Of a DNA stretch of 32,043 bases, positions 923 through 14,162 are shown one piece after another. The first letter of the stretch is position 1. Each line of letters starts with the position of its first letter. The position numbers and the translations under genes are program-made. The notes below the pieces were generated by a model, which made no database searches, had not been told where the DNA came from, and saw nothing but the letters and a program-made list of their open reading frames with translations. The DNA is from Segetibacter sp. Its GTDB lineage: Bacteria > Bacteroidota > Bacteroidia > Chitinophagales > Chitinophagaceae. Location: positions 1-32,043 of the forward strand of contig JAQBNN010000092.1 in assembly GCA_028288505.1 (NCBI GenBank), in the 5' to 3' direction.

Positions 923-2137
923 TTAAAACAATCTCAACTGCACACCTTTTTTAACTGACTTTGGAGGTTTGGCATCACCAAAAACGGTCTTGCCACCATA
1001 CTTCCAGCTATCTTCTCTTTCCTTCTCGATAAGCTGGTTAAAGTTGTTGTTAGGTACGAAGTCTTTCTCGGCGCGTGCAGCAATTGTATGCAATGCTTTT
1101 AAGGCTTGCTGCTTGTCGCTGTTGCCAAGTTTTGCTTTGTTTACAGCAGTTTGTAAAGTACTTATAGTTTCATCATATACATTAATCGGAACAGGGAAAG
1201 GATGACCGTCTTTACCTCCATGTGCAAACGAAAACCTTGCAGGATCTTTAAACCTCGATGGAGTACCATGGATAACTTCGCTCACCAAAGCAAGCGACTG
1301 AACCGTCCGCGGTCCTACGCCTTGCAACAGCAGTAACTCCTCGAAGTTTTGCAGGTTGTTTTCGTGCGCCATCCATAATATACTTCCCAGTCTTTTCAAG
1401 TCCACATCTTCCGCCCTTACATCGTGATGATTAGGCATGATAAGTTGTTGGAATTCCTGCATCATCAACTCCGGCTTTTCAATAGTTAGTTGCAACATGC
1501 CTTGCCTTGAAGGCTTTGCTTCAGCAGCTGTAAGGTTAAGCATTGGGCCAATATTAATACCGCAAACACCCGTATGAGGCTCCTCTACAAACGATGCGAG
1601 GCCGGCGGAGTGCCAATGGTACCGCCGCGCTGTTTTATTACCAGGATGCATGCCTTGTTGCACAACCGTCCATTCACCATTGCTGCCAACAATAAAGTTG
1701 TGCGTATACAATTGAAAGCCATCTTGCACGGCGGTATTATCAACCTTTGCGCTAAGCTTACTACAACGCACCAGTTCGTCGCCGTTTAATCCTGTTGTAC
1801 CAGCTATTTTTAATAGTTCGGCCGGAGCTTGTTTAGAGTGTTTGCCCTTTCCGCCGGTTATGTAAATACCTAGTTCTTTTGAGTGTGGATTAATGGCCCT
1901 TTTTAAAGCGCCCATTACCGATGTGGTTATGCCTGACGAATGCCAGTCCATACCCATTACTGCCCCAAAGCTTTGAAACCAAAAAGGATCACTGAGTCGC
2001 CTTAAAATTTCCTGCTGGCCATATTCAGTAGCAATAGATTCAGTTATGGCTAGTCCAAGCTTCGCCATACGTTCTGCCAGCCATTGGGGAACATAGCCAT
2101 AGTGTAAAGGAAGATCAGCCGAACCAGACCGTTTCAT
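923..2137 (-). CDS. DUF763 domain protein
   Basis: A 404-residue protein of the DUF763 family, found in archaea and bacteria, with no established biochemical role that I can state. The frame opens 17 codons earlier, but the ATG at 2137 gives the family's typical N-terminus, MKRSGSADLPLHYG followed by VPQWLAERM, so I chose it. Visible features are a region with LQGVGPRTVQSLALVSEV, which resembles a helix-hairpin-helix DNA-binding element (about residues 270-290), and the conserved FAHGGKDGHPFPVP segment further on. The C-terminus ends basic (KSVKKGVQLRLF). The protein is probably cytoplasmic. The helix-hairpin-helix and the neighbouring repair genes suggest a nucleic-acid role, but that is inference. 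Confidence 0.85.
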   Translation of the reverse strand: MKRSGSADLPLHYGYVPQWLAERMAKLGLAITESIATEYGQQEILRRLSDPFWFQSFGAVMGMDWHSSGITTSVMGALKRAINPHSKELGIYITGGKGKHSKQAPAELLKIAGTTGLNGDELVRCSKLSAKVDNTAVQDGFQLYTHNFIVGSNGEWTVVQQGMHPGNKTARRYHWHSAGLASFVEEPHTGVCGINIGPMLNLTAAEAKPSRQGMLQLTIEKPELMMQEFQQLIMPNHHDVRAEDVDLKRLGSILWMAHENNLQNFEELLLLQGVGPRTVQSLALVSEVIHGTPSRFKDPARFSFAHGGKDGHPFPVPINVYDETISTLQTAVNKAKLGNSDKQQALKALHTIAARAEKDFVPNNNFNQLIEKEREDSWKYGGKTVFGDAKPPKSVKKGVQLRLF

Positions 2138-2214
2138 GTATTGCGAATGTAGCAGTTGTTCCTGCAATAAAATCCTAAACAGGTACAACCACTTCTGCAG
2201 AAAAGTAAAGCAGC

Positions 2215-5371: not shown

Positions 5372-6652
5372 CTACGAAACCAAGCATAGATCGTTCCACC
5401 TTGTAGTATATTTTTGCGATAGCAACTCCTGTTTCATCTTCCAAGGTCGTTGTATTCCTGATGAAGCGAACTTCACTATCTCGTTGCGCATGCTGAAATT
5501 GATGTTGTCAACCTTGTTCATTAAAGATCGTTGTTCGTTAGTAGCTGGTGGGGTAAATAAATTAGCCTGGAGGGATGAGACAGGAACAAGCTTACTAAAT
5601 ATTACACCGGCCTTTTCGTAAATAAATCCCGGTTTATAAAGCTGCTCTAATAATTCAATGGCAGGTTTAATTAAATCGTTGGTGTTACTGCTAGCTACAG
5701 GTAAATTAATGTCGAGATTAATAGGTTCGTTGGGTTTATAAATATCGCCCCTGTTCAATGCCTTTTCAATAACAAATACAGTCATTTTTTTAGCTGCACT
5801 GTTTTGCCTTCTTAGCTTTTCTGCTGCACGGCTTACGTACATTGCTACCGCTTCCTTCATCTGCGCCAGATCAGTTAACGGGTGACCAAAGCGCCTTGTG
5901 CATGAAACCATCTTTTTAGTTGTTAGCGGTTCATCTAAACCTATTGCATCAACACCATTCAACTCTTTTATTAATCGTACCCCAACTACTCCACCAAGAT
6001 GTTGCCGTGCCCATTCTTCAGGCATTTGTTTTAAGTCGTATGCTGTTTTTACTGCGAACTTTTCAAGCTTATTCGCATTTTGTTTACCTACGCCCCATAC
6101 TTCGTCAACTGGTGTTCGTTTAAGTGCTGCGTTTACTTTGCCTCCAGTATCAAGAAGAAGCATGCATTTGCTTTTTTCTTTGTTGCCTTTTGCCAGGTAG
6201 TTGCCAATTTTCGCTAATGTTTTTGTTGGTGCTACACCAATAGAAACAGGTATGCCTGTCCATTGGAAAATTCGTTCTTTCAATTCTTTTACTGTTGCAC
6301 TTAAATCGCGTGGCGGTACCTGGGAAAGATCAACAAAGGCCTCGTCCACGGAGTAGACCTCAACACAATTTGCGGGTAACATACTTTGCATTGTTTCCAT
6401 CACCCGCTTACTTAAGTCCCCGTATAAATTATAGTTAGATGAGAAGGCAGTAATGCCATGTTCTTTTAATAACGGCTTACTCAGGAAATAAGCCTGCGCC
6501 ATTTTTATACCCAACCTTTTAGATTCATCGCTGCGGGAAATAATACAGCCGTCGTTGTTGCTTAATACAACAAGAGGTGTTGTTTTTAAGTGCGGTTGAA
6601 AAAGTCTTTCACACGAGCAATAAAAATTGTTACAGTCCACTATTGCTTTCAT
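5372..6652 (-). CDS. umuC: UmuC-type Y-family DNA polymerase (Pol V catalytic subunit homologue)
   Basis: A 426-residue protein, close to the usual UmuC length. The N-terminus AIVDCNNFYCSCERLFQP carries the first catalytic Asp (D6), and SVDEAFVDL at about 101-109 supplies the Asp-Glu pair of the palm. NNDGCIISRSDESKRLGIKM is the typical UmuC fingers region. A little-finger domain and a UmuC-type C-terminal region follow. Family function: error-prone translesion synthesis past DNA lesions, in partnership with UmuD'. A UmuD-like gene lies about 2.8 kb upstream on the same strand, rather than adjacent as in the classical umuDC operon. A 12-bp inverted repeat (GCTGATTTTAGC on the plus strand) lies 30 bp upstream. 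The catalytic residues look intact. Confidence 0.93.
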   Translation of the reverse strand: MKAIVDCNNFYCSCERLFQPHLKTTPLVVLSNNDGCIISRSDESKRLGIKMAQAYFLSKPLLKEHGITAFSSNYNLYGDLSKRVMETMQSMLPANCVEVYSVDEAFVDLSQVPPRDLSATVKELKERIFQWTGIPVSIGVAPTKTLAKIGNYLAKGNKEKSKCMLLLDTGGKVNAALKRTPVDEVWGVGKQNANKLEKFAVKTAYDLKQMPEEWARQHLGGVVGVRLIKELNGVDAIGLDEPLTTKKMVSCTRRFGHPLTDLAQMKEAVAMYVSRAAEKLRRQNSAAKKMTVFVIEKALNRGDIYKPNEPINLDINLPVASSNTNDLIKPAIELLEQLYKPGFIYEKAGVIFSKLVPVSSLQANLFTPPATNEQRSLMNKVDNINFSMRNEIVKFASSGIQRPWKMKQELLSQKYTTRWNDLCLVS

Positions 6653-6759: not shown

Positions 6760-7365
6760 TTAAAACAAAGCACCTTGTGTTGTTACAACCGGCATGTTTA
6801 AAAATTCGAAACGTTGTACTGGTTGGTAACTTTTCATTCCCTCAGGCCTTCGCAGCAGTAACATATCTTTCGCAATAAACCTTCCTGTAAAATGTTTGTG
6901 GCTGTATTCTAACCAACCTTTTTCATATTGCCAGGGCAATAATTGGCGCGCAATTGTTAACTGTGGATTGTCTACAAAGTGAGGCTTAACATCTTTTGTC
7001 TTCATTAATGGTTGAGCTGGTTTCAAGCTCTTTACCAACATTTGTATAGCTACTTTAGTATCTATATTTATGTAAATACTGTGAGATGGAAAACTGCCAA
7101 AATCTTTTAGCTCCACTTTAAAGGCTGGCATAGCCATAGCAATCATTTTTAAGCGATTTACTATTCGCTCTTCCATCATTTGTATTTGGCTAAACTTTAC
7201 TAAAGTGACCTGCGGCTTACCCCACTTAGCGGATGGTGCTTCAAACTTTTCAGCAAATTCTTCTTTTACCTTCATTACCTTATTCTGCAGTTCTTCATGC
7301 GGCTTTAGTACTATCAAGTATTCACAAACACGGTAGCCGGGAAGAGACGATAACTCGTTTGTCAT
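6760..7365 (-). CDS. 2H phosphoesterase-like protein (LigT/2'-5' RNA ligase fold) with both catalytic His replaced by Gln
   Basis: A 201-residue paralogue of the gene directly upstream. Active members of the 2H superfamily carry two H-x-T/S-x motifs that cleave or form 2',5'- or 2',3'-cyclic phosphodiesters. Here the two motif positions read KPQVTLV (Q52) and NPQLTIAR (Q135). Both codons are CAG, confirmed on the DNA. The rest of the fold is well preserved: the EYLIVLKP strand, the SHSIYINI segment, and the LLLRR strand near the C-terminus. Only 22 bp separate it from the upstream paralogue, so the two are probably co-transcribed. The likely outcome is a pseudo-enzyme that binds RNA or a nucleotide, or pairs with its active sister; this is inference. 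Confidence 0.85.
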   Translation of the reverse strand: MTNELSSLPGYRVCEYLIVLKPHEELQNKVMKVKEEFAEKFEAPSAKWGKPQVTLVKFSQIQMMEERIVNRLKMIAMAMPAFKVELKDFGSFPSHSIYINIDTKVAIQMLVKSLKPAQPLMKTKDVKPHFVDNPQLTIARQLLPWQYEKGWLEYSHKHFTGRFIAKDMLLLRRPEGMKSYQPVQRFEFLNMPVVTTQGALF

Positions 7366-7387
7366 AGCGCAAGCTTTATTAGTTAAT

Positions 7388-7990
7388 TTAATAGGGTGTT
7401 GATAAAAGGTTTATACCCGGCTGAAGGCGAAAGACATGCACCTTTTTGCATTCATCATATTGGCTGCTTCTTCTTAAGAGTACCAATTCGCTCACTATAA
7501 ACTTTTCGTGAAAGGTCTTTTGCGAATATTCCATCATCGCCTTTAAATAATCGGTTTCTGGCAGCCTTCTCGCAATAGTTAAATGCGGATTTGATACTAG
7601 CCTAACGGGCGGGCACGAGCACGAGCTTACATAATTGCTTATCACTTTAAGTTCGGTGTTAATTTGCTTAAAAGGCTCAGGATTCTGGATGCGTAGATAA
7701 ATAGTATGCGGAGGAACTCCACTGTAGTTGTTAAAGGCTACTTCAAAACTACGCTGCATACTAAAGATTCGTTCCATATAACGGATTACGGTTTCTTCCA
7801 TTGGTTCTCTCGCCAGGAAGTTAGCAACGGTAATGTGGGGTTGTGTTTTTACCGTAATCTTTTCATGATAGCTTTTAGTTAAGCTTTCCTTTTCCTTTTT
7901 TATTTTTTCGTTTACCGGAGACCCGGGCTGAACCACAAGCAAATACTCATATAATCCAACCTCTGGAGGGCTTGCTTCTAACTTTTCCAT
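7388..7990 (-). CDS. 2H phosphoesterase (LigT/2'-5' RNA ligase-like), catalytic motifs intact
   Basis: A 200-residue single-domain member of the 2H phosphoesterase superfamily. Both signature motifs are present: QPHITVANF (H52) and NPHLTIARRL (H136). The family hydrolyses 2',3'-cyclic or 2',5'-linked phosphodiesters in RNA or nucleotides; some members also ligate tRNA halves in vitro. No signal peptide is seen, so it is cytosolic. It is the first gene of a two-gene unit with a His-to-Gln paralogue. An AT-rich 15-bp inverted repeat lies 36 bp upstream of the start and resembles one upstream of umuD. The true substrate is unknown. Confidence 0.88.
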   Translation of the reverse strand: MEKLEASPPEVGLYEYLLVVQPGSPVNEKIKKEKESLTKSYHEKITVKTQPHITVANFLAREPMEETVIRYMERIFSMQRSFEVAFNNYSGVPPHTIYLRIQNPEPFKQINTELKVISNYVSSCSCPPVRLVSNPHLTIARRLPETDYLKAMMEYSQKTFHEKFIVSELVLLRRSSQYDECKKVHVFRLQPGINLLSTPY

Positions 7991-8026: not shown

Positions 8027-8041
8027 GCTAAAAATATTAGC
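8027..8041. promoter_or_regulatory. 15-bp inverted repeat GCTAAAAATATTAGC upstream of the 2H pair
   Basis: Perfect 5-bp arms GCTAA / TTAGC with a 5-base spacer. It matches 11 of 15 positions with a site the same length upstream of the umuD-like gene. The position fits an operator shared by the two units. AT-rich palindromes can occur by chance. Confidence 0.35.
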
Positions 8042-8172: not shown

Positions 8173-9279
8173 CTAAAACATACTCATCTGTTGGCCCGGT
8201 CGTTTAAACTGGCTGCAGTCGAGGTCTAACCTTTCGTGGTTTAATCCATACTTGCGGGTGTATTTCCGGTATTGCATTGCTACCACCTCTGCTAGGTTTC
8301 CTGATCCGCGCATTCGTCGTCCCCATTCGCTGTCGTTTACTTTACCTCCATGACTGGCTTCTATCATATGCCACACTTTGTCTGCACGGTCTGGGAAGTT
8401 CTTATACAGCCAGTCGTGAAAGAGTAGTTTGATAGCACCGTTTAAACGAATAAAAGTATAGGCAGAAAATTGTGCACCTGCTTCGCTGGCTGCTTTAAGA
8501 ATATCATGCATCTCATGCTCGTTCAACCCCGGGATCATTGGGCCGATCATCACACCCATTCTTACACCTGCTTTGCTCATTTCTTCAATAAGGCGTATGC
8601 GTTGTTTGCCTGTTGTTGTCCTGGGTTCCATTACGCGGCGCAGCTCTTCATTAAAACTGGTGACTGACACCAATACCGAAACAAGGTTCTTCTTAGCCAT
8701 CTCCTGTAGCAGGTCTTTATCTCGCAGCATGCCTGCGTTTTTGGTAATCAATCCAACTGGTTGGTTAAACTCGTTACATATTTCAAGCAGTTGGCGGGTT
8801 AGCCGAAACTTTTGCTCCGCGGGCTGGTAACAATCGGTATTCCCGCTTAACCCAATAGGTACACATTCCCACTTGGGGTTCAGTAAAAACTTACGCAGCA
8901 GGTCAGGTGCGTTTTTCTTTACTATGATCTTTCGTTCAAAGTCGAGGCCGGCACTATAACCCCAGTATTCAAAGGAGTTGCGGGCATAGCAATAAATGCA
9001 GCCATGTTCGCAGCCCTGGTAAGGGTTCATGCTATAAAACATGCCTACATCAGGGCTTTCAACTTTGTTTACAATGCCTTTTGCATTGTCTTCAAAGTAT
9101 TGCGTCGCTTCATTTTTTTCCGTCCAGTCGTCTATGCCTTCTGCATGTTCTTTTACACGGTAGTTCTTTAAAAACTTGTTTTGCGTGTTGATCTGTGCAC
9201 CCCTGCCCTTCACGTATTCGTTAACTGGTTCCTGGATATTTTCTTGTGTTATTAAAGGTTTGTTGCTTTTCATATCCAT
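8173..9279 (-). CDS. PA0069-family radical SAM protein
   Basis: A 368-residue radical SAM enzyme. The [4Fe-4S]/SAM cluster motif is CEHGCIYC (C90, C94, C97), inside NPYQGCEHGCIYCYARNSFEY, the hallmark of the PA0069/Rv2578c family, which is distantly related to spore photoproduct lyase. The middle, including VSVTSFNEELRRVMEPRTTT, and the C-terminus GQQMSMF also fit. The substrate is not known. The GTG/ATG choice is not an issue: the ATG at 9279 (MDMKSNK) or the ATG two codons later are both possible. It sits between the UmuD-like gene and the 2H pair, all leftward, which supports a nucleic-acid repair or modification role (inference). Confidence 0.9.
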   Translation of the reverse strand: MDMKSNKPLITQENIQEPVNEYVKGRGAQINTQNKFLKNYRVKEHAEGIDDWTEKNEATQYFEDNAKGIVNKVESPDVGMFYSMNPYQGCEHGCIYCYARNSFEYWGYSAGLDFERKIIVKKNAPDLLRKFLLNPKWECVPIGLSGNTDCYQPAEQKFRLTRQLLEICNEFNQPVGLITKNAGMLRDKDLLQEMAKKNLVSVLVSVTSFNEELRRVMEPRTTTGKQRIRLIEEMSKAGVRMGVMIGPMIPGLNEHEMHDILKAASEAGAQFSAYTFIRLNGAIKLLFHDWLYKNFPDRADKVWHMIEASHGGKVNDSEWGRRMRGSGNLAEVVAMQYRKYTRKYGLNHERLDLDCSQFKRPGQQMSMF

Positions 9280-9464: not shown

Positions 9465-9893
9465 TTATACAGTATGAATTACATAAGTTACCACGCCCCA
9501 CACGCTAAAGTCGGCAAAAGGGTCTACATCAATGGGAGCCAGCTTTGTTGTTTCAGGTACAAGTCTTGTTCTATTGAAACCTTTTTCCAACCTGCGAACG
9601 AGCATTTCTCCATTTAAAACGGCTACCACTACTTTACCGTTTACGTTGGTTATGCTGCGGTCTACTATCAATACATCCTGATTAAAAATGCCTGCGCCTG
9701 TCATCGCCTCACCATTCATGCGAAAGAAAAATGTGGCAGGTTTGTTACGGATCAATTGTTCGTTCAGGTCAATACCTCGCTCCATGTATTCGTCGGTAGG
9801 GGTACTAAAGCCGGTAGCGTTGGCGCGGTGAACATCCTGTTGTGTAAAGTCTTTTGTGCCTTTATAAATGCTGTTGAAAATTTCGGGTTCCAT
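9465..9893 (-). CDS. umuD: UmuD-like S24/LexA-fold protein lacking the Ser-Lys dyad
   Basis: A 142-residue protein that aligns with UmuD along its length: an N-terminal arm, then GFSTPTDEYMERGIDLNEQL (compare GFPSPAADYVEQRIDLNQLL in E. coli), then the LexA/UmuD beta domain through GVVTYVIH at the end. In active S24 peptidases the Ser lies in a G-D-S-M motif and the Lys in T-V-K-K/R-L. Here the positions read NGEAMTGAGI (A63, codon GCG) and EMLVRRLEK (R100, codon CGC). The usual Cys-Gly or Ala-Gly cleavage point is Thr-Gly. Autocleavage to UmuD' should therefore be impossible by the known mechanism. Upstream lies a 15-bp inverted repeat. Family assignment is secure; the non-cleavable state is inferred from sequence. 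Confidence 0.88.
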   Translation of the reverse strand: MEPEIFNSIYKGTKDFTQQDVHRANATGFSTPTDEYMERGIDLNEQLIRNKPATFFFRMNGEAMTGAGIFNQDVLIVDRSITNVNGKVVVAVLNGEMLVRRLEKGFNRTRLVPETTKLAPIDVDPFADFSVWGVVTYVIHTV

Positions 9894-9914: not shown

Positions 9915-9929
9915 ACTAAAATATTTAGC
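9915..9929. promoter_or_regulatory. 15-bp inverted repeat ACTAAAATATTTAGC upstream of umuD
   Basis: CTAAA / TTTAG arms around three bases, 21 bp upstream of the umuD-like start. It resembles the site at 8027-8041 in sequence, length and placement. It is a candidate operator for a shared (possibly damage-responsive) regulator. Confidence 0.35.
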
Positions 9930-11611: not shown

Positions 11612-12337
11612 TCAATCCTTCCACAACGCTTCTGCTTTCGAAATACTTTCCGGCTTACCTACATCCAGGAACCTGGTGCCGGTGTGGTCGTACCCTTTTA
11701 TCTCATGCTCCTGCATTAGGTCAAGGTATACATCAACCATAGAAAACTTGCCTTGTAGGGTAATTAAGGAAAAAATAGCAGGGCTTATTATATGAATACC
11801 GCTAAAGGCTTTCTGCTTTTTGTTTTTACTACCAGGCTGTGTTGCAGGTTTCTCTTCTCCTGTCTTTATGTTCCTCCAACCGCATAAAGTATCTTCTTCA
11901 TCAAACAGGAAATAGCGGGAGGTTTGCCTGTCGCTTACTGCTAATGTTGCTAAAGGGTTGTGGGTATCGTGGTATTCAAAAACGGCATCCAAATCAAGGT
12001 CAGTTAGAATATCAACATTCATTAAAACGAAGGGATCGCTATCAGTTAATAGAGGAGCAGCCTTTATAAGCCCACCACCGGTTTCAAGCACAGCATCAGT
12101 CTCATCGCTGATTACAATTGCACTTCCCCAGCCTTTATTCTTTTCTAAAGCAGCAACAATCTGGTCAGCAAAATGATGAACGTTTACAACAACTTCTTTT
12201 ATACCAAATTGTTGCAGGTACTCTATGTTTCGTTGTAGTAAGCTTTTGCCATTTACTAAAGCAAGCGCTTTGGGATGTTGGTCTGTCCATGGCTTCAGTC
12301 TTGTTCCAAGACCTGCCGCTAATATCATTGCTCTCAT
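11612..12337 (-). CDS. murU: Sugar-phosphate nucleotidyltransferase, MurU-like (MurNAc-1-P uridylyltransferase)
   Basis: A 241-residue single-domain NTP transferase. The N-terminal signature LAAGLGTRLKPWTDQHPKAL (residues about 6-25) is the nucleotide-binding loop, followed by an NVHHFADQI segment and VLMNVDILTDLD, whose Asp would bind metal. Length and motifs fit MurU, which makes UDP-MurNAc from MurNAc-1-phosphate during peptidoglycan recycling. The gene upstream on the same strand encodes an AmgK-like kinase, the enzyme that makes MurNAc-1-phosphate, and this pairing is what favours MurU over other uridylyl- or mannose-1-phosphate transferases. The two are separated by about 190 bp containing one dispersed motif, so they may not share a single tight operon. 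Confidence 0.75.
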   Translation of the reverse strand: MRAMILAAGLGTRLKPWTDQHPKALALVNGKSLLQRNIEYLQQFGIKEVVVNVHHFADQIVAALEKNKGWGSAIVISDETDAVLETGGGLIKAAPLLTDSDPFVLMNVDILTDLDLDAVFEYHDTHNPLATLAVSDRQTSRYFLFDEEDTLCGWRNIKTGEEKPATQPGSKNKKQKAFSGIHIISPAIFSLITLQGKFSMVDVYLDLMQEHEIKGYDHTGTRFLDVGKPESISKAEALWKD

Positions 12338-12526: not shown

Positions 12527-14005
12527 CTACGCACCACTTTCTTCACCCTTTAGGGCCGGGGCATTCACCCAGTTCTTTGCATCCTGCACCATGTGACTTA
12601 CCTCTGTTTTTACACCGAACTTATTCTTTAAATGTCTTGCTAATGCATCAGCAGCGTATACACTTCTGTGTTGGCCACCTGTACAACCGAAGCCTACCAT
12701 AAGGCTTGCAAAACCTCGCTTAATATAATCTTCAACAGCTATGTCAACAATAGAAAAGGCGCTGTTTAAAAAGTCGGTCATCTTGGTGCGTTGCTCAAGA
12801 AAATCCTTCACTTCTTTGTCGCGACCAGTTAGTTGTTTATACTCATCGAAACGACCAGGATTTAGGATACCACGCATATCGAATAAGAAGCCGCCGCCAT
12901 TTTCGGTCTCATCTACAGGGCAGCTTTTTTTATACGAAAAGCTACTGATTTTTACAACCAATGGCGTGTTCTCATCTGCACGCACTGTTTCAAACCTTTC
13001 CACTATTTCATCGGCAACAATAAGCTTTAACAGCCTGTCGAACTCTGGTGTAATAATGTCAATCTTTTTGTTTTCTATAAAGAACTTAAGGTTGCGCAAG
13101 GCCAAAGGAATACTACTTAAAAAATGTGCCTTCCTTTCGAATAACCCCCTGAAACCATATGCACCTAAAACCTGTAATAAACGTATAAGGACATAGCCGT
13201 TGTATTGGCTATTAAATTCAGTACGATCGATTTTGTTTTTTAGTAATTGCTCTACTTCAGCAATGTAGCCGTCGAGTAGTTTATCTTTCCACTCTTCGCT
13301 TAGGTTGGCTTTTGCCTGCCACAAAAGCGATGCAACGTCGTATTGCAAAGCGCCTTTCATTCCGCCTTGGTAATCTATAAAATGAACCTTATCATTACTT
13401 ACAATAACATTGCGGCTTTGGAAGTCGCGAAACAAAAAATACTTGTGCTCGGTATCGCCTAAGTAGTTGCTCAGGATTTCGAAATCATCAAGCATTGCCT
13501 GCTTATCGTAAGGCGTTTTAAGTGTATCAAGAAAGTAGTATTTAAAGTAAAGCAGGTCGCTCATGATGGCTTGCTTACCAAACTCTTTTGCGGTTAGGCA
13601 CCAGTTATAATCAAGCCCTTTGTCGCCTTCAATTTGCACCTTTGCCAACTGCTGCAATGTCTGTTGGTATAAGCCAAAAGTATACTCGTTATGTCCATGC
13701 CTTTCCAGTTGTTCCAACAAGCTTTCTTCTCCCAGGTCTTCTTGTATGTAAATCGTTTTGTCATCGTTGGTAGCATAGATGGCAGGCATAGGTAAACCAG
13801 TTTTTAAAAAATGATCAGAGAAGTAAATAAAGGTGGCATTCTCCTTTATATTAAGATTAAACGTGGCAATGCACGTTGTTTCGTTTTTGTAGATCCTGAA
13901 ATAAATCCTGTCGCTACCGGATTGAGGAAGTTTCTCAATCCGGTCTGCTTGCGCACCGGAATAAGATTTAAATAATTCACCTATCTCCGTAACGATCGCT
14001 TCCAT
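12527..14005 (-). CDS. AmgK-like sugar kinase fused to a RapZ C-terminal domain
   Basis: A 492-residue fusion. I start at the ATG at 14005 (MEAIVTEIGELF); the frame extends 48 codons upstream through intergenic-looking sequence. Residues 1 to about 330 form an APH-type kinase: IYIQEDLGEESL, then FRDFQSRNVIV (catalytic Asp and metal-binding Asn) and HFIDYQGG. This resembles AmgK, which phosphorylates MurNAc and GlcNAc at the anomeric position. From about residue 350 the protein matches the RapZ C-terminal domain, including VGFGCTGGQHRSVYAADALA. In E. coli RapZ that domain senses glucosamine-6-phosphate and binds small RNAs. There is no RapZ N-terminal Walker domain. The murU-like gene follows. 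The kinase and RapZ identities are strong; coupling of the activities is inferred. Confidence 0.85.
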   Translation of the reverse strand: MEAIVTEIGELFKSYSGAQADRIEKLPQSGSDRIYFRIYKNETTCIATFNLNIKENATFIYFSDHFLKTGLPMPAIYATNDDKTIYIQEDLGEESLLEQLERHGHNEYTFGLYQQTLQQLAKVQIEGDKGLDYNWCLTAKEFGKQAIMSDLLYFKYYFLDTLKTPYDKQAMLDDFEILSNYLGDTEHKYFLFRDFQSRNVIVSNDKVHFIDYQGGMKGALQYDVASLLWQAKANLSEEWKDKLLDGYIAEVEQLLKNKIDRTEFNSQYNGYVLIRLLQVLGAYGFRGLFERKAHFLSSIPLALRNLKFFIENKKIDIITPEFDRLLKLIVADEIVERFETVRADENTPLVVKISSFSYKKSCPVDETENGGGFLFDMRGILNPGRFDEYKQLTGRDKEVKDFLEQRTKMTDFLNSAFSIVDIAVEDYIKRGFASLMVGFGCTGGQHRSVYAADALARHLKNKFGVKTEVSHMVQDAKNWVNAPALKGEESGA

Positions 14006-14135
14006 AGGCCATTTTATTGAGGGGCAGTAAATGTATAATAAATTGCGAGAAACGCATTTATTTTGGAGTGTATAAACTTTTAGAAAAGGAAGTATGAAAA
14101 TAATGGGCCAAGGCAGTAGGATAAGAATGTAACGG

Positions 14136-14162
14136 CCGTTGCGTTGCACTCTTGTACTTTTG
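14136..14162 (-). repeat. Dispersed motif, hybrid copy, leftward
   Basis: On the minus strand it reads AAAGTACAAGAGTGCAACGC then AACGG. It faces the rightward copy at 14280-14306. Confidence 0.6.

Follow-up and report, generated by a model that had tools for sequence, protein, structure and literature searches.

The window, by which we mean the whole 32,043-nucleotide stretch of a Segetibacter contig that was analysed, carries umuD, a PA0069-family radical SAM gene, a tandem pair of genes for 2H-fold proteins and umuC, all on one strand (Table 1). We call the upstream member of the pair the H copy and the downstream member the Q copy, after the residues at their two catalytic positions; the motifs read QPHIT and NPHLT at residues 52 and 136 of the H copy, and KPQVT and NPQLT at residues 52 and 135 of the Q copy. 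An earlier note on this DNA had described the two genes as tandem paralogues, the upstream one with H-x-T twice and the downstream one with Gln in place of both histidines, and the reading frames and codons bear this out, since both ORFs are intact, 22 bp apart, and the Q copy has CAG on the DNA at both positions. Aligned over 169 residues, the two proteins are 30% identical (E 2e-25), and they are true paralogues.

Table 1. Features of the umuDC/2H locus, in window coordinates
Feature	Position	Strand	Remarks
umuC, Pol V	5372-6652	minus	internal QANLF at 5555-5569
Q copy, 2H-fold protein	6760-7365	minus	201 aa; Q52 and Q135 in place of the catalytic histidines
QGALF, C-terminus of Q copy	6763-6777	minus	residues 197-201; matches the QxxLF clamp consensus
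Codon of Q135, second catalytic position of Q copy	6961-6963	minus	CAG
Codon of Q52, first catalytic position of Q copy	7210-7212	minus	CAG
H copy, 2H-fold protein	7388-7990	minus	200 aa; both H-x-T motifs (H52, H136); C-terminus without the clamp motif
Catalytic codons of H copy	7835-7837 and 7583-7585	minus	CAC and CAT
CTAA-N5-TTAG site CTAAAAATATTAG	8028-8040		37 bp upstream of the H copy start
PA0069-family radical SAM gene	8173-9279	minus	C-terminal QMSMF at 8176-8190, a match to the clamp motif
umuD, S24 peptidase, Pol V subunit	9465-9893	minus	
CTAA-N5-TTAG site CTAAAATATTTAG	9916-9928		22 bp upstream of the umuD start

Both copies exceed the Pfam gathering score for PF13563, and the structure models of both (pLDDT 89.3 for the Q copy and 88.4 for the H copy) have the two-lobed fold of the 2H superfamily. 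The structure-database comparison was made with the Q copy model, which matches 2H folds (Foldseek E 4.8e-10 to YjcG), and the H copy model was compared with it by the order of its elements, the helices and strands following one another in the same way. The Q copy has kept the fold, as the earlier note supposed. The two H-x-T/S motifs of a 2H enzyme are present in the H copy, as H-I-T and H-L-T; the Q copy has Q-V-T and Q-L-T instead, which makes it a member of the superfamily by fold that lacks the active site. Neither copy reaches the cut-off of TIGR02258 (ThpR/LigT; 65.7 bits, with scores of 17.6 and 26.6 bits), and both lie far below the curated cut-off of PRK13679/NF010223, which we take to be the YjcG group (129 bits, with scores of 26.8 and 39.2 bits). 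The closest solved fold to the Q copy is that of Bacillus subtilis YjcG (PDB 2d4g; Z 19.2, rmsd 2.1 over 163 residues, 18% identity), a protein that is a weak match in sequence (E 0.0048) and presumably has two H-x-T motifs. LigT/ThpR (PDB 5ldi-5ldq, 4qak) has the fold in common with the Q copy at Z about 16.5, but the Q copy differs from it in the absence of both histidines and in the presence of an SOS operator and a clamp-like tail. At an E-value of 0.01, PADLOC and PHROGs models returned no family for either copy, and a phage or defence role was dropped on this ground.

The relatives of the two genes were collected as a sample and not as a census. The best 80 of 146 related loci were taken, the genome searches supplied up to 30 loci per search and 20 further regions, and 20 regions were taken for a control group. 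The resulting 251 ORFs were reduced to 199 distinct ones, from which L154, being cut off, was dropped, and L161 was reassigned to the third group. The catalytic positions were counted in a first census of 158 distinct ORFs and then by group, with 129 Q-group and 48 H-group sequences fetched from Chitinophagaceae and 21 third-group sequences; the third, or control, group (20 or 21 sequences, depending on the count) is a small mixed set of 2H genes lying away from umuDC and picked by weak similarity. Among the genomes searched, high-scoring relatives of either copy were confined to the window's own family, no match in another family of the order being stronger than E 1e-13, and the named related records are from Chitinophagaceae or from Bacteroidetes placed no closer by their titles. 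Within the genus the identity of the Q copy is 66-78% and that of the H copy 46-66%, and the Q copy occurs without the H copy at 77 of the 129 loci. Since the Q copy is both better conserved and often alone, the H copy looks, from these sequences, like a faster-evolving extra gene.

Loss of the catalytic histidines turned out to be a recurrent feature of both groups. His/His is the commonest state in the Q group, with 72 of 129 sequences, so that catalysis may matter in many lineages; another 42 members keep one histidine and 15 keep none. The H group has His/His in 20 of 48 sequences, and the third group in 18 of 20, the two exceptions there representing one event. Parsimony on a tree built without the two catalytic columns, counting changes per site, gives 23 and 24 loss changes at the two sites in the Q group, 11 and 8 in the H group, and 1 in the third group. 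When branches with SH-aLRT below 80 are collapsed, 21, 19, 10 and 8 changes remain, 58 in all, as a lower bound; below 95, where most of the tree collapses, the counts are 6, 6, 2 and 3, or 17 changes, with polytomies resolved in the cheapest way and a few reversals compatible with either count. Nine species of the window's genus display seven states of the Q copy (QQ, HY, HH, HH, QY, QF, NH, QH and QH), and the H copy is also damaged in three of the nine. Assembly error was rejected as the source of the losses, which also occur in 7 of 15 records titled as cultured strains. At one locus (L158, 3970-5309) a tandem pair has lost all four catalytic histidines (V/R and L/K) with both genes open, and the second gene ends in QQSLFEA.

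These counts bear directly on the relationship between the two copies. It could be hypothesized, along the lines of the earlier note, that they form a heterodimer of a catalytic H copy and a pseudo-enzyme, the Q copy, that regulates it; the window pair is one of the 8 out of 46 pairs in which the H copy alone is intact, and in all 46 pairs the two genes lie on the same strand with the H copy upstream. However, the Q copy alone is intact in 9 of the 46 pairs and neither copy in 18 (both are intact in 11), 27 of the 77 single-copy loci have lost a histidine as well, and Gln/Gln was found only in the window genome among those read. Q/Q is therefore not a constant companion of H/H, and the active/inactive heterodimer is not a common theme of these loci; the idea of an active enzyme and a dead partner working as a unit was dropped on the table of 46 pairs, and we regard the heterodimer as distinctly unlikely. 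Duplication as the driver of loss was rejected in turn. The raw counts speak for it, with at least one histidine lost in 26 of the 46 Q copies that are paired and in 27 of the 77 that stand alone, but a tree-aware test, with only five supported contrasts, gave no significance. A composite site formed by complementary loss was rejected as well. The pairs of the Niastella/Longitalea clade look complementary, since the first histidine is kept in the Q copy and the second in the H copy (save in L070), but these pairs have lost the motif threonines too, and in other genera most pairs are not arranged in this way.

The fate of the motif residues next to the histidines indicates what was lost together with them. 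In the Q group the motif Thr/Ser is lost with its histidine in 20 of 36 cases for the first motif and 21 of 36 for the second, and despite a kept histidine in 14 of 93 and 8 of 93, as would follow if constraint had been lifted from the pocket and not from the protein as a whole. In the window the Q copy retains T54, T137 and R140, the last corresponding, by its place five residues after the second catalytic position, to Arg130 of LigT (LigT residues as given in PMC5283653), and on account of these residues the Gln/Gln protein may bind a ligand without cleaving it. One could thus envision a nucleotide or RNA-end trap, a binder or sensor in which the loss of the acid/base histidines leaves a damage-linked ligand held and uncleaved. 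There is a precedent in human Usb1, a 2H-fold protein whose inactive H208Q form, with a His-to-Gln change at a catalytic position, was solved with uridine-adenosine according to the title of PDB 6d2z, although that Gln is a laboratory mutation and the Gln of the Q copy is the natural state. The replacements are also biased by site, with Gln prevailing at site 1 (14 of 34, as compared to 3 of 32 at site 2) and Tyr/Phe at site 2 (19 of 32, as compared to 8 of 34 at site 1; p 0.004 and 0.005, in a post hoc test based on parsimony). The frequent loss of the motif Thr/Ser along with the histidine, on the other hand, argues that pocket binding is not general, and we consider the trap unlikely. Even less probable, to our mind very improbable, is that these proteins are still enzymes that work through one histidine or through another residue with a different chemistry. 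A candidate would be H95, which is invariant in 129 of 129 Q-group sequences, and 42 of these keep one histidine; yet 15 of the 129 keep neither, and where a histidine is lost its motif threonine is often lost too.

The persistence of the histidine-lost copies is the next question. In a codon model, omega is 0.062 for the Q copy and 0.100 for the H copy in the Niastella/Longitalea clade, where every copy lacks at least one histidine, as compared to 0.070 in a Lacibacter control set that is labelled HH (seven members, one of which, L052, is H/V). The dN/dS check proposed in the earlier note gives 0.077 for the Q copy of the window's genus and 0.130 for the H copy, values that are rough because the synonymous sites are near saturation (tree length 10-15). 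P93, H95 and F159 are invariant in all 129 Q-group sequences, and the histidine columns rank only 109th and 110th of 216 by conservation, a total that includes residues upstream of the start codon. Relaxed selection and decay, with catalysis unnecessary and the genes eroding, would explain the many different replacements at both sites, the faster evolution of the H group seen in its omega within the genus, and the fact that members lacking a histidine are less conserved in the rest of the protein (mean 0.610 vs 0.686, and 0.549 where both are lost), which fits some relaxation. It would also agree with the congener assembly G007 (92% complete, 760 contigs), in which neither copy nor the radical SAM family was matched. 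Against decay stand the omega values of 0.06-0.10 in the histidine-lost clade, the absence of internal stops from the Q-group matches listed, the invariant positions and the kept tail, and the present data already point to histidine-lost copies staying intact over long times; we therefore judge decay quite improbable. The Q copy is an open frame in nine of the ten genomes of the genus, namely the window genome and eight others, G007 being the tenth, so that the proviso that it might simply be decaying can be set aside. Stops inside the matched stretch were seen in five H-group matches (G033, G016, G077, G012 and G070), but both motif positions are contained in their frames, which are about 200 aa long, and we read these stops as lying near the end. 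Selected loss of catalysis, as the earlier note had it, survives in part; a selected non-catalytic role is the better reading, and the pairing logic attached to it does not hold against the table of 46 pairs.

The setting of the genes suggests where such a role may lie. CTAA-N5-TTAG is given as the SOS operator of Bacteroidetes, Chitinophagaceae included, in PMC8565304, and the 32 kb of the window contain exactly two such sites, where 0.9 would be expected by chance. The palindrome CTAAA-N3-TTTAG that we found between umuD and the 2H gene, exact in 56 of 99 intergenic regions against 0.27 in shuffled ones, is this published operator, and at 111 of 123 loci an operator lies no more than 250 bp upstream of the first 2H gene, against 0.55 expected. 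By these sites, and by those at 8028 and 9916 in the window, the 2H genes would belong to the Bacteroidetes SOS regulon, which thereby gains a predicted member. No match to lexA (TIGR00498) in the assembly exceeded the cut-off, the one weaker match being UmuD, in line with the statement in PMC8565304 that the phylum lacks a canonical LexA. A 15-base version of the operator, with one mismatch allowed, was rarer than its reversed control in all five whole genomes searched, which hold three exact matches, two of them at the umuDC/2H locus (G054 and G080); in these five genomes the longer, looser pattern outlined no wider regulon.

The usual layout in relatives has umuC and umuD on one strand and, divergent from them, either a single 2H gene of the Q group or a pair in the order H, Q, with the radical SAM gene next in line. 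A divergent umuD is found at 89 of 108 Q-group loci with enough upstream sequence, and the radical SAM gene lies downstream of the Q-group gene at 104 of 111 loci with enough downstream sequence. The radical SAM family was matched in 107 of 148 genomes and the Q copy, counting any match, in 72 of 148, and two genomes (G033 and G053) have the 2H gene of the umuDC locus with no radical SAM match; hence the association of the 2H genes with the radical SAM gene is not obligatory. The Bacteroidetes SOS study names umuDC and an splB-type radical SAM gene, and the words "phosphoesterase", "phosphodiesterase", "LigT", "RNA ligase" and "COG1514" are absent from its main text (PMC8565304), which was the only paper retrieved on umuDC and radical SAM in Bacteroidetes. 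Our literature searches found no paper on the PA0069 radical SAM family and none joining 2H phosphoesterase with pseudoenzyme, and among the 2H phosphoesterase matches listed, none concerned this locus by title and start of abstract. A search for further conserved neighbours was dropped, as the displayed clusters were, judged by position, mostly opposite-strand frames of known genes. Three smaller observations concern individual loci. A DUF72 protein (PF01904) lies beyond umuC at 2003-3406 of L066, and likewise in other loci, its cluster occurring at 33 of 61 loci with shadow frames possibly included; a second Q-group copy lies elsewhere in the genome of G054, on contig 30 (L160, 3515-4129), beside a second, divergent umuDC-like pair; and in L030 (5833-6891) the 2H reading frame continues without a break into the first part of the radical SAM protein, where the contig ends, possibly as a fusion or through a stop lost in a low-coverage assembly.

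A feature that separates the Q group from the other 2H genes is its C-terminus. Bacterial proteins that bind the clamp generally follow the consensus Q-x-x-L-F, in which positions 1, 4 and 5 are the important ones (PMC12309361), and in the Q group the corresponding Q197, L200 and F201 are conserved at 98, 95 and 91%. Residues 193-201 of the Q copy model have a pLDDT below 50, which places the motif in an accessible segment. Scored as Qxx[LM]F within the last 15 residues, the tail is found in 117 of 129 Q-group, 1 of 48 H-group and 0 of 21 third-group sequences, and in 0 of 104 UmuD proteins; the 812 other ORFs, some of them spurious frames, have it in 33 cases. It is common in every state of the active site (67 of 72 with His/His, 39 of 42 with one histidine, 11 of 15 with none); among the 12 members without it, which include 4 of the 15 double-loss members, several come close to it, for instance with QGELLF. 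Of the radical SAM proteins, 96 of 111 have Qxx[LM]F, and 90 of 101 have Q-x-x-L/M-F as their very last residues. Among 76 UmuC proteins, 66 contain QxxLF within the last 110 residues, mostly as QGNLF, and in 63 of the 66 the motif stands at a constant distance of 64-65 residues from the C-terminus, as compared to 32 of 269 other long ORFs with QxxLF in the same stretch. The UmuC motif at this place binds the clamp in Escherichia coli. Although QGxLF differs from the best consensus, QL[S/D]LF, its fixed occurrence in UmuC suggests that it may be the clamp dialect of this lineage. The motif common to UmuC, the radical SAM protein and the 2H protein leads to the prediction that all three dock on the clamp, the PA0069 family being an uncharacterised one.

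Fold, repeated histidine loss, purifying selection, tail, operator and synteny can all be read from the sequences, and what they point to, with a slightly better than even chance in our estimate, is that the protein would be an SOS-induced, clamp-tethered accessory of translesion synthesis or repair, in which the 2H fold serves mainly as a binding scaffold. The 2H pair would be part of a Chitinophagaceae SOS module together with UmuDC and the PA0069-type radical SAM protein, with the Q-copy orthologue as its core member. This orthologue would be induced from the CTAA-N5-TTAG operator and would dock on the sliding clamp through its C-terminal QxxLF tail, presenting the 2H fold at the damaged fork as a scaffold for nucleic acid, nucleotide or protein, where it would probably position the radical SAM repair enzyme or Pol V. 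As phosphoesterase chemistry would not be required for docking or for a scaffold, it could be dispensable, and the catalytic histidines would be shed repeatedly, in both paralogues and in single copies alike. A more specific version can be put forth, which we think possible though on balance doubtful. The 2H fold may have become a clamp-docked adaptor that unites the tailed radical SAM enzyme and Pol V on one clamp, a new class of SOS accessory from which catalysis was discarded tens of times; where both copies are present, docking would fall to the Q copy with its tail, and the H copy, which has none, would be carried on it. If that were true, the locus would encode a clamp-loaded lesion-processing complex in Bacteroidota.

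As an analogy of role, the closest to the Q copy is ImuB, which is described as a dead polymerase and the clamp-bound hub of the mutasome (PMC10421592, PMC3901139). The likeness is in role only, to an SOS-controlled, inactive relative of an enzyme that serves as a clamp-binding hub; the Q copy has the 2H fold and not that of a Y-family polymerase, its partners are predicted, and its active site was lost many times within this one family. Structural use of the 2H fold has a precedent in the trypanosomatid mitoribosome, where a 2H-fold protein (6hiw_DQ and 7ane_ar; Z 13.4 and 13.2 to the Q copy) sits inside a large RNA-protein complex, although it has no link to DNA repair and is likened here by fold, not by catalytic residues. 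A 2H protein that is tied to DNA alkylation repair is ASCC1, in which we know of no clamp motif. Its 2H domain (8tuk, 8tly) matches the Q copy at Z 13.7 and 12.1, but it is eukaryotic and is accompanied by a KH domain.

Studies of pseudo-enzymes usually have a single loss, or a handful, to work from. In this one family both paralogues have lost the active site independently, tens of times in all, while the positions that selection keeps stand out clearly, and this combination should allow the non-catalytic function to be mapped from sequence.

Two further observations were made elsewhere in the window. The protein of a DUF763 gene (923-2188, minus strand) ends in QLRLF (926-940), a match to the clamp motif, and the one other full-length DUF763 copy ends in QLTLF, so that two of two have the motif. 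On the same strand, a 540-aa ORF at 12527-14149 combines an APH-type phosphotransferase domain with a RapZ C-terminal domain, and a nucleotidyltransferase gene lies beside it at 11612-12337.
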